A DNA stretch of 36,871 nt. It comes from Gallionella sp. (lineage in GTDB: Bacteria > Pseudomonadota > Gammaproteobacteria > Burkholderiales > Gallionellaceae). Below, piece after piece: positions 5,662-34,684 of this stretch (position 1 is the stretch's first letter; every line of letters starts with the position of its first letter). A program made the position numbers and the translations under genes. The notes beneath the pieces are model-generated. The model was not told the DNA's origin and searched no databases. It saw only the letters and a program-made list of their open reading frames with translations. The stretch covers positions 1 through 36,871 of the forward strand of contig JAURZN010000203.1 of assembly GCA_030653355.1 (NCBI GenBank), given 5' to 3'.

Positions 5662-6315
5662 GTGACCCATAAACCTACCCCCGGCAAGGCCGAAACGGCG
5701 CTCATGCCACCCTTTAAGGCGCTGACGCTGGAGCATATTTTCATACCGGACACTCAGGAAGCCTTGTCGTCAGCAAGCGCCGAAATTTTTGCGGCAGGCG
5801 TGGTGGGCTTCGACACCGAATCAAAGCCGACCTTTAACCGGGGCGATGTCAGCGAGGGGCCGCATGTCCTGCAATTCGCGATTCAGGATAAGGCGTTTAT
5901 CTTTCAACTCAATCGCCCCGAGTGTCTGCCCTATGTTATTGAAATTCTGCAATCGGAAGCCGTGCTCAAGGTGGGCTTTGGCTTGCAGTCGGATCATGCG
6001 CAAATTCATCACAAGCTGGGCGTGAAGCTGGCGGCGGTTCTGGATATGAATCACGTATTCCGCCAGGATGGCTATGGCAGTTCCACCGGGGTCAGGGCGG
6101 CAGTCGGACTCGCCATGCAGCAAAAATTTCATAAATCCAAGCGCGTCACGACCTCCAACTGGGCCGCTTTGCAACTCAACGACAAGCAGCTGATCTATGC
6201 AGCCAATGACGCTTACGCCGCCCTTGAAGTCTTGAACGCCCTGGACCGGCGGCGCGAAGATCTGCCGATCCGCTGGCAGATGCCGCTTTTCGAACAGGAT
6301 GTTTGTAATGGCTGA
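5662..6315 (+). CDS. RNase D-like 3'-5' exonuclease (DEDDy)
   Basis: The 217-residue protein is a single DEDD-superfamily exonuclease domain. The first motif is VVGFDTESKP (Asp and Glu), the second VGFGLQSD (Asp), and the third YAANDAYAALEV, which has the Tyr-x3-Asp of the DEDDy subgroup. It lacks the HRDC domains of classical RNase D, so it belongs with the short exonucleases whose substrate (DNA or RNA 3' ends) is not known. The start is GTG 5662 with a modest AAGG upstream; ATG 5704 is an alternative that keeps the domain. The stop overlaps the start of the following kinase gene, so the two are likely co-translated. Confidence 0.88.
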   Translation: MTHKPTPGKAETALMPPFKALTLEHIFIPDTQEALSSASAEIFAAGVVGFDTESKPTFNRGDVSEGPHVLQFAIQDKAFIFQLNRPECLPYVIEILQSEAVLKVGFGLQSDHAQIHHKLGVKLAAVLDMNHVFRQDGYGSSTGVRAAVGLAMQQKFHKSKRVTTSNWAALQLNDKQLIYAANDAYAALEVLNALDRRREDLPIRWQMPLFEQDVCNG

Positions 6316-31616: not shown

Positions 31617-31846
31617 TCATGTAGTAGCGTGGGGTTGGACAGTCAATGCCCACTTTGATGGTGATTTAGCGGTGGCTGCCATGTACCGAGAGCGGAAGTT
31701 AAATCCGAATAGTGGCGACGGTCACTTCTCGGCCACAGCGGTCGGTGACGCACGCTATCAATTAAGTCCGCTTCGCAATCCTAAGCTGCCCCAATAAATC
31801 GTAAAGCAAGCCTTCAAAACATCTGTTCAGCGGAGGGTGCCGATAA

Positions 31847-33013
31847 CTATCGGTTGCCTTTGGCCCGATTGTGAGTGATGCAAAGCATTTGGCAGTTATT
31901 CGCCGAGCTTCCGCCCCCCTTGCTCCATGCGGCAACGTGATCCGCGTCCATCTCGGGAAAATTCCATATCTTGTTTTTATTGGCCCCATGGCCGACTGCA
32001 CAGAGCGGGCAATTTGATTTGCCATTGGCTTTCGCATCTGCGGTCTGCTTGGTGTAGACGGACTTCTTGGTCGCGTCGTCGAATACTCGCACATCCAGAA
32101 GCTTCGAATCTTGGCTGCCGTCGAGAATATATTCGAAGACCCCGCGACGGTTCTTGATGTACGGGTCGCCATAAAGCCGCTTGACCTCGTCAGATACTTT
32201 GGCCGGATCAAATGACTTGGAGTGGTGTTGCTCGTAGAGTCGCCCCCACTCAAGCCCCTGCATCTCCTTTTCTACATCTATAAATACGCTCGACACCCAG
32301 TCGATGACGCTGTTGAAGTGGTTTTTCAGTTCGGTAATATTGTCTTTGGTGCGATGGCTGCTCATGTAGCCGCCGACATCCCCCTTGCTTACCCAGTCCA
32401 GTGCCTGTTCCAGAAAGTCCTGTCGGTTTGCGCTGCCCTTGATATATGCGCTCCATTTCTGGATGTTCGCGTTCTGGCTGTTGCTGAACTCGGACTTGGC
32501 CAGCGTTACGTATGGTCCGGAGTAGATGGCGTTCAACAGTTCTTGCTGATTGAGTGGCACACCCGCGATGTTGATGGTCTGAAACCATTGCTTGATCTCG
32601 GTCTCCGTGCCCTCACACTCGTAAATCAGTAATGTCGACTCGCGAATTCTGGCTTGCTGATCGGCGGGCAGGCTGTCGAAGTTCTTCGGATTACCATTAT
32701 CCATGATCGCGAATTTATTGGTCACGAACCGCCCGATACTGGTGATGCGCTGCTGTCCATCGAGCACCTCGAACTTGTCCTGCGCGACTTTGTTGAAGTA
32801 GATCAGCCCGAGCGGATACCCCTTGAGCAGGGATTCGATGACCGCCTGCTCTTTCTTGCCGCCGCCGTCCGCATAGATGTAGTTGCGCTGGTACTCCGGT
32901 TGGATAGTGAGCTTGCCGGCCAACCCGAACAGCCCTTTGCCCTCCAGTTGGTTGTACACAAAACCGTTACAGATGTCGGCAACGGTGATGTCGGTTTTTA
33001 AGGTGGTTTTCAA
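31847..33013 (-). CDS. DUF262 - HNH nuclease protein (GmrSD-like)
   Basis: The 388-residue protein joins a DUF262 domain to an HNH nuclease. DUF262 shows [11 protein letters not shown] (Gln42-Arg43) and [11 protein letters not shown] (85-89 D-G-Q-Q-R), the nucleotide-binding and hydrolysis signatures. The C-terminus from residue 335 has C-P-L-C, then M-D-A-D-H-V (His359), [16 protein letters not shown], a complete zinc HNH site (Cys335, Cys338, Cys374, Cys378). Known GmrSD and related enzymes use DUF262 for NTP-driven restriction of modified or foreign DNA. It follows an EcoRI-type methyltransferase by 20 bases on the same strand. Restriction activity is inferred. Confidence 0.88.
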
Positions 33014-33033
33014 TTTATGGACCTTGATTGTGG

Positions 33034-34311
33034 CTAACTACTGCGGCGGTGACTGATGAGAATCCGTTTGTATGGCGCAATGAAAAACTCATCTTCAACG
33101 ATGTAATAAGTCTGGTTATAAGGAGCTTCCGTTACTTTTATCGCACAGGCATCATTAAGCTTTGTCACCTTGCTCCGTTTTCCATTCGTATCAACCTGAA
33201 CCTGTTGGGGGTAATCCCTTATGTGGAGATCATAGCTGTGCTCATAGCCATGAATCTCAAACTGATCTGGGTTGTACTTATCAAGGAAAGTAATCGGGAC
33301 ACCCATCATGCCTTCGTAATCGCTGGGAATTTCCTTGTACGTGCAAACTTCAATGGCGTCGAAGTTGTCGTAACGGTCATAGGCGGTCTTGCCCTTCAGG
33401 TTTTTGCTGAACTTCAGATTCTCGGCCATGGTCATTAGGGCTAGTTTTTGGTGTCGGCGGCCATGGTCCAAGTTTGTGAACCACATAATGCTTCCCATGC
33501 TGAAATATTTGACCCCATTCACAATCTTCTTTCGTGACTCAGTTTTGATGTCGTAGTCCTTTTGGACTTCAAACCACTTGGTTCCTCCGTTATCAACGCC
33601 AAGCCAAAGCTTGTTGTCCTTGATTAACGGGAATATCTCCTTATAGGTAATCGCGTTCTGGTTGCCGATGATAAGGAACTTCTTGTTGTACCCTGCAAGT
33701 TGGGCTACATATTCGCGGAAGAGAGAGAAAGGCGGGTTGGTGACAACGATATCTGCTTCATTCAGGAGGTCGATACACTCGGGGCTACGGAAATCTCCCC
33801 CTGGGTACTCCATGTTGCCCTTCAATGCCATCCGAGCTGCTTTATTGCGCTTTAGAAAAAGTTCGACGTCGGTTACGTCCACGGCACCGTCGCCATTTTC
33901 GTCTTTCACCTGATCGAGAACAACGGCTAGCGCCTTGGGCTTCTGGCGCTTGTCATTACCTTCATCATATTCAGGGAACAAGGTGTACTGGCCTGCAATG
34001 GGGGAGCCATCGTAGCTGGTGGTGATCAGTTTTTTGAGGCCGAGCTTGTTGAAATTGGCGGCAAAATATTTGAAAAAGTTGCTCTCGAAAGGGTCGTCGC
34101 AGTTGCAGTAAACGACCTTGCCACGGAAGGTGTCGGGGTCAAATTCGAGGTAGGCTTCAACCTCTTTCTGGATGTCAATGTACTGAGTGTAGAACTCGTC
34201 CTGCTTGGCCGCCTTTGCGGCATGCAGGCCTCGATTCATCGACGCGTTTTCCGTTTTCGGCGGCTCAACCATCTTCGATGCAATCTTCGCCATGGCCTTA
34301 GCGTGCTCCAT
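33034..34311 (-). CDS. Adenine-specific DNA methyltransferase, EcoRI type
   Basis: The 425-residue product matches the EcoRI methylase family (M.EcoRI): Q-D-E-F-Y-T-Q-Y near residue 37, [20 protein letters not shown] at 65-84, [20 protein letters not shown], and the catalytic N-P-P-F (192-195) in [28 protein letters not shown] and Y-D-N-F-D-A-I-E-V also fit. It should methylate N6 of adenine at a specific site, which cannot be read from sequence. EcoRI itself pairs with a very different endonuclease; here the neighbour is DUF262-HNH. No strong ribosome site precedes ATG 34311, and Met7 or later Met codons are alternatives. Confidence 0.88.
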
Positions 34312-34684
34312 TAGCGTTCGCCGATTTAGAAGTAGGGCACATTGATGAAGGGAAATCTTGCGTTATGAGAGAAAACATTGCGTCGTGCAGCCTAATATGT
34401 GAACTAAACGGGGCGAGTATGCCGCCGATGTTGGCTATTGGCAATGCCTCCTGCATTGCGAACGGCTGCTCAAGAGGAGAAGCATCAACGACAGGTTGCG
34501 GCAGCATATCGGCCATAGGGCAGCCAAGATGCCACCGTCTCCTTAGGCCGAGAAACAGCCGACCACAGCTACCTTCCTGAAGGCCTGCTTCGAGTCGTTG
34601 TGAGACATTCGAAGACTGTTCCGGAAATTAAGGCTTCCATCCCACGCCATTGCAGGCCTTTTCGGCAAACGGCTCTTGGCAAGC
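34312..34684. other. Unassigned 373-base stretch between the defence pair and the two-component system
   Basis: No coding region, RNA or repeat is supportable here. A 72-codon minus-strand frame (34298-34516) and a 71-codon plus-strand frame (34365-34580) lack recognisable domains and starts with ribosome sites, and the composition is mixed. Any promoter for the methyltransferase operon would be expected in 34312-34400, but no convincing -35/-10 pair was seen. The segment may contain a decayed insertion or gene remnant. Confidence 0.5.

Follow-up and report, generated by a model that had tools for sequence, protein, structure and literature searches.

In the window, a 36,871-nucleotide contig of Gallionella sp. 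(JAURZN010000203.1), an EcoRI-family adenine-N6 methyltransferase (M) is followed by a DUF262-HNH nuclease (R). Across genomes, plasmids and viral contigs the two proteins are obligately paired, the methylase carrying discrete segments that are exchanged between systems and the nuclease being largely indifferent to which of them its partner holds. Judged from these patterns, the reading that we favour, by somewhat more than even confidence, is that M carries the specificity of the module and that R would be an effector acting through M.

Both genes lie on the minus strand. M (425 aa; 33034..34311) matches the Pfam family EcoRI_methylase (PF13651, E 1.3e-125), the methylase family of EcoRI restriction-modification (R-M), as well as the PADLOC profile MTase_II (PDLC03297, E 3.2e-107) over its full length; judging from its relatives, the true start may be further in, near residue 25. 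Its NPPF catalytic motif (residues 192-195; minus strand, 33730..33741) is kept almost without exception, the four residues occurring in 162, 163, 163 and 162 of the 163 aligned methylases. R (388 aa, TTG start; 31847..33013) begins 20 nt after M on the same strand and has only two Pfam matches, GmrSD_N/DUF262 at residues 36-164 (PF03235, E 3.1e-21) and HNH at residues 353-388 (PF01844, E 6.2e-5); the R.EcoRI family PF02963 is absent. Residues 8-387 match the PADLOC profile REase_II (PDLC03418, E 3.2e-86), a model that scores a subfamily of 360-aa proteins at 440-495 bits versus 287-303 bits for the subfamily of the window. The two open reading frames and their spacing are thus as the original prediction described them, and the motifs it named could all be located: DGQQR at R residues 85-89, His359 as the HNH histidine, and NPPF in M. 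As PADLOC holds profiles that label both genes Type II, the pairing itself is already catalogued and is no discovery, though such an entry names a family and says nothing of how it works.

The module was also said to look like an insertion, with msrQ on one side and a two-component system on the other, which is true as a description of position only. In relatives, where the best kinase homologues are at most 55% identical, msrP/msrQ was found at none of 23 such loci within about 1.5 kb of flank. In 1-kb windows, G+C is 47-54% over the pair versus 59-65% in the nearest flanking windows, a dip that is not unique to the pair, as other parts of the contig also go down to 53%. A 22-nt inverted repeat, 77% complementary, surrounds the whole two-gene module (31726-31747 and 34533-34554); it may have arisen by chance or may be what an insertion left behind. 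There is no spare piece of M in the window.

To place the pair among its relatives, we assembled 170 R loci from genomes, viral contigs, plasmids and one phage, with known duplicates removed; the genome loci, from named genomes of many phyla, are the best 80 of 369, and the viral-contig loci are 79 drawn from 115. M stands beside R in 162 of these 170 loci, and wherever the contig extends at least 1 kb upstream of R, M is upstream and co-directional (157/157). In the best 80 of 369 genome loci taken alone, M is upstream on the same strand in 77, and in the other three the contig ends less than 180 nt upstream of R. The genes overlap or adjoin, with a gap mostly between -4 and +20 nt in the first locus set. 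Of 398 sampled Pseudomonadota genomes, four hold full-length R, and a methylase above the Pfam cut-off for M was found in the same four, and so the co-occurrence of the two genes exceeds chance. The distant DUF262 loci of a contrast set, where the stretches were short, gave no match to M. The outcome named beforehand as refuting, that the two genes seldom occur together elsewhere, was thus not observed, and the statement that a DUF262 enzyme is here preceded by an adenine methylase, unlike ordinary GmrSD, is borne out: this is an R-M-like module with an obligate methylase partner.

Full-length R is present in 9 of 99 genomes of the order Bacteroidales (the order of the genome at locus L073) and in none of 36 genomes of the same genus as the window's host, six of which hold distant, partial DUF262 matches only. 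A tblastn search of 72,556 plasmid records found R in 275, 43 of them with at least 80% cover, and a Flavobacterium phage carries R with M adjoining. Because R occurs in plasmids and a phage and in none of the 36 same-genus genomes, the M-R pair is a mobile module.

A Bro-N domain protein lies between M and R at L258:2469-3320 and L259:3127-3978, and other open reading frames separate the genes at L122 and L144. On the Enterococcus faecium plasmid pBN83-1 (L043:518-9161), genes close to the pair include erm(A) and one whose annotation is a type ISP enzyme. At L088 an open frame of 802 residues was considered as a fusion of M and R and rejected, as the M frame ends at 5817 and the start of R is at 6001; in the R locus set there was no M frame above 600 aa and no R frame above 520 aa.

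The DGQQR motif (minus strand, 32747..32761), which is predicted to form a nucleotide pocket in the DUF262 (ParB/Srx) domain, is kept in 151/151 R proteins, and the HNH core (minus strand, 31850..31957) is nearly as constant, with D358 in 150, H359 in 151, N373 in 150 and N382 in 149 of the same proteins. Four cysteines, C335 (151), C338 (151), C374 (141) and C378 (150), likely form a zinc knuckle. In the predicted fold of R (pLDDT 86.7), residues 4-152 resemble BrxU (VIA Z 8.9, rmsd 3.3, 128 residues aligned, 19% identity), which was also the only structure that Foldseek matched at or below E 0.001, and the model resembles SspE (Z 7.0). Two HNH domains, that of EcoKMcrA and that of the Gme nicking enzyme, bear a weak likeness to the C-terminus (Z 5.6 each), and the middle of the protein, residues ~160-305, has no clear PDB match among the matches listed, an absence of little weight. 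By analogy with DUF262 families (PMC10952713, PMC4619093), R would use nucleotide and cleave DNA, and the intact DGQQR likewise suggests nucleotide use.

The methylase alignment agrees along its length except in one segment, which lies between LWLG and a stretch of 11 residues and corresponds to residues 238-276 of the window's M (segment 1; minus strand, 33484..33600, limits computed from residue numbers). Pairwise identities in this segment are two-humped, with a trough near 0.4-0.5, and they resolve 163 methylases into 26 discrete types (10 to 34 under other clustering thresholds). All 26 are present among 151 DUF262-HNH systems, with an effective number of 11.3; the segment of the window is of type 15, which it shares with L041, L272 and L298. 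A second variable segment at the C-terminus (segment 2, residues 354-412; minus strand, 33076..33252, limits likewise computed) falls into 64 types among 162 methylases, the window having type 56. The two segments are combined in 119 distinct ways in 150 systems and are nearly, though not wholly, independent (mutual information 1.84 versus 1.70 +/- 0.03 for shuffled labels). The length limits placed on the M or R open reading frame left 11 of 162 two-gene loci out of this segment analysis.

Segment 1 is presumed to be a target-recognition element, on the basis of its pattern of variability and of M.EcoRI, in which Tyr204 was reportedly cross-linked to DNA. Mutants of M.EcoRI at H235 (H235N) and Trp183 have also been reported; Y204, W183, W225 and H235, in a numbering that omits the first Met, do fit the M.EcoRI sequence. 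The predicted model of M is of low confidence (pLDDT 66.5) and was not used to place the segment; Foldseek gave it no match at or below E 0.001, and its weak matches are methyltransferase folds, with M.BseCI at rank 11. Different segment types may overlap in target, and some of the sampled systems may be inactive.

To ask how R relates to these segments, we compared pairs of systems at equal R identity, column by column, in 147 dereplicated systems. Segment-1 type was followed by 38 of the 40 columns of segment 1 itself (mean effect 0.44), by 4 of 342 other M columns, residue 218 most strongly, and by a single R column, which barely passed (z 4.42 versus a family-wise threshold of 4.3, effect 0.05). 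No R column followed the C-terminal type (maximum z 4.15, threshold 4.2). A first, uncorrected test on 84 systems had placed three R columns over threshold, with R residues 106-117 weakly associated (window z 6.8, effect 0.09) and effects in M reaching 0.9.

On the R tree of 151 systems, segment-1 type has changed at least 86 times, as against a mean of 112 changes (minimum 107) for shuffled labels and a floor of 25, which indicates some inheritance and much exchange. The nearest neighbour by R has the same segment-1 type in 25 of 87 systems versus 8 expected, so that some association between R and segment type persists. Segment-1 type differs in 19 of the 27 pairs whose R proteins share 85% identity or more. 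In L121 and L119, R is 90% identical and M outside the segment 93%, versus 20% in the segment. The R genes of L258 and L259 differ by 17 synonymous codons and one non-synonymous change, at codon 2, and in their methylases both segments differ (segment-1 types 13 and 5). If R read a site of its own, its sites would lose their protection at every swap of this kind. Both segments of M thus reassort much faster than R changes.

Several loci hold more than one set of methylase segments. L239 has two full M genes of types 13 and 7 before one R, and L252 two of types 18 and 13, all with intact NPPF. Extra M-like pieces occur in 11 of 175 M loci, and in four these are inverted spare 3' ends of M (L256:3405-3990, L258:1860-2470, L259:2625-3110 and L296:2860-3095), at whose borders stand inverted repeats, 18-25 nt long and 91-100% complementary, in the codons for QFEI(L/I)G. 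A tyrosine recombinase follows R by ~50 nt in L256, L258 and L259, and no recombinase match was found after R in L296. The arrangement of these loci looks like a small shufflon.

M belongs to the same Pfam family as M.EcoRI, and over 345 aligned columns it shares 45% identity with the EcoRI methylase of the E. coli plasmid pMB5823_5, whereas R, a DUF262-HNH protein, is unrelated to R.EcoRI (PF02963), and the M-R gene order differs from the R-M order of five plasmid EcoRI loci checked. In those five loci the PF02963 nuclease stands before M (the Raoultella nuclease being known from annotation only), and so one methylase family is joined to two unrelated nucleases. The 11 methylases paired with R.EcoRI are all of segment-1 type 18, in place of type 15 in the window, and share a single common C-terminal type, with R.EcoRI proteins that go down to 54% identity and are less than 85% identical in 51 of 55 pairs. 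Type 18 is also found in nine DUF262-HNH systems. In ten further R.EcoRI loci there was no M-family methylase within the stretch examined. On an Acinetobacter plasmid (L207:1917-3807), an R.EcoRI-family nuclease accompanies a methylase that does not match the M family, a reverse exchange of partners, and on a Campylobacter plasmid (L128:4968-5573) the gene after an EcoRI-family methylase encodes a 201-aa protein that matches no Pfam family and may be a nuclease partner of a third kind.

We also looked for target sites by the avoidance of palindromes. In the flanks of the best 80 of 369 genome loci, GAATTC was not avoided (160 observed, 155.7 expected), and CATATG was avoided (64 versus 134 expected). 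In Bacteroidales, CATATG stood at 98 of 190 expected in non-carriers (0.52; L147-L166 and L187-L206) and at 22 of 74 in carriers (0.30), the lowest carrier-to-control ratio of 64 palindromes; this count left out four control regions below 3,000 bases, one carrier region below 2,500 and L183, a carrier with both subfamilies. The signal was judged weak as a target, because it fails to track segment type. By segment type, the positive control was itself weak (type 18, GAATTC 34 versus 40.7 expected), and the strongest cell, TTTAAA for type 20 (37 versus 66.8 expected), is unconvincing among 9 types and 64 palindromes. We claim no target from the avoidance test.

We therefore consider how such a module could work. 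In the mechanism that we propose, M would be both the modifier and the specificity subunit of a mobile two-gene R-M module, reading DNA through its two exchangeable segments and methylating a target adenine in self DNA (adenine being predicted from the family). R itself would read no sequence that has to agree with the one read by M. At unmethylated targets M would recruit or license it, probably with nucleotide as a control through the DUF262 domain, and R would cut with its HNH domain. We infer that the segments set DNA specificity and that R acts through M, and likewise the nucleotide step and the cleavage.

The work would be divided much as it is in Type III (Mod/Res) or Type I systems, but between other components. 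As in Type III systems and in Type I systems with HsdS, exchangeable segments sit on the modification side and the nuclease side is constant, and the invertible segments of some M loci recall those of phase-variable hsdS loci (PMC4948785). The M-R pair has neither a helicase nor a separate S subunit, the helicase-nuclease Res domain being absent from R, and its nuclease is of the DUF262-HNH kind. The SspE/DndI systems of phosphorothioation offer another likeness, a DUF262 nuclease beside a DNA-modifying partner (PMC10952713), but there the partner is the Dnd/Ssp sulphur chemistry, in place of an adenine methylase with exchangeable segments, and the C-terminal nuclease is a different one. With the Type IV enzymes GmrSD and BrxU, R shares DUF262 with DGQQR; it differs in having HNH (PF01844) where they have DUF1524 (PF07510), in its length of 388 aa versus about 560-580 aa and in always having M beside it, where GmrSD lacks a cognate methylase. 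DUF1524 is absent from R; a 596-aa Rhodococcus DUF262 protein scanned alongside has a match to it below the cut-off. The neighbours enriched in a survey of GmrSD include parts of Type I and Type III systems (PMC4619093).

The most familiar alternative is an ordinary Type II system, in which R independently reads the short sequence that M methylates and cuts it when unmethylated. The filing of both genes as Type II by PADLOC, the position of M as a sister of the EcoRI methylase and the strict pairing of adjacent methylase and nuclease genes, as in Type II systems, all agree with it. Yet R stays constant when the segments of M change, where the methylases paired with R.EcoRI keep a single type, and in L239 and L252 two types of M share one R; the sequence evidence for R thus points away from independent reading, and we regard this alternative as improbable. 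The original prediction had offered a nuclease that cuts unmethylated DNA, which in this ordinary sense, with sequence reading of its own, is a poor fit because R is unchanged when the presumed recognition segments change. Its second suggestion, that methylation guides the nuclease, comes closer to the sequences: guidance from the methylase side agrees with them, with the methylase protein as the guide and not the methyl mark.

In a different arrangement, M would restrain R by protein contact, much as an antitoxin does, R being a weakly specific DNA-damaging nuclease freed when M is lost or titrated and the target of M being free to drift. Obligate pairing, the order of M before R with overlapping or adjacent genes, and the indifference of R to the segments of M are explained equally well in this way, but it leaves unexplained why M keeps its catalytic motif and why its segments diversify and invert, and we consider it unlikely. 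More doubtful still is a Type IV-like role, in which R senses modification of foreign DNA and M is kept for another purpose, such as self-marking or phase-variable gene control. The DUF262 domain and the fold kinship with BrxU and SspE speak for such a role, as does the action of known DUF262 enzymes on modified DNA (PMC10952713, PMC12707154); the usual DUF1524 nuclease domain is missing, however, and no R stands without M in the 157 loci with room for one.

Returning to M as the carrier of specificity, we raise tentatively, at slightly less than even confidence, the possibility that these systems form a separate R-M class, in which a compact DUF262-HNH nuclease that reads no sequence takes its aim from a stand-alone EcoRI-family methylase. 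Lineages would exchange the two recognition segments of this methylase, and a dedicated tyrosine recombinase would reshuffle them in place at some loci. In the literature searched, with most subscription journals and REBASE outside its scope, we did not find this division of specificity between M and R described, nor a paper joining 'DUF262' and 'EcoRI family', nor any account of M segments being exchanged while R stays constant. Should R not take its target from M, the question stays of how an unchanged nuclease lives with a methylase of ever-changing recognition segments.

If R does take its target from M, the label 'Type II' would misstate how these genes work, EcoRI-family methylases would gain a role beyond protection, and the origin of a DUF262 effector that attacks unmodified DNA would be explained. 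Natural variation would then offer a large swap set, 26 segment-1 and 64 C-terminal types on one nuclease scaffold, with which re-targetable restriction by two genes would be directly testable. As a separate class, with one nuclease serving several methylases, the module would be a phase-variable, re-targetable immune system.
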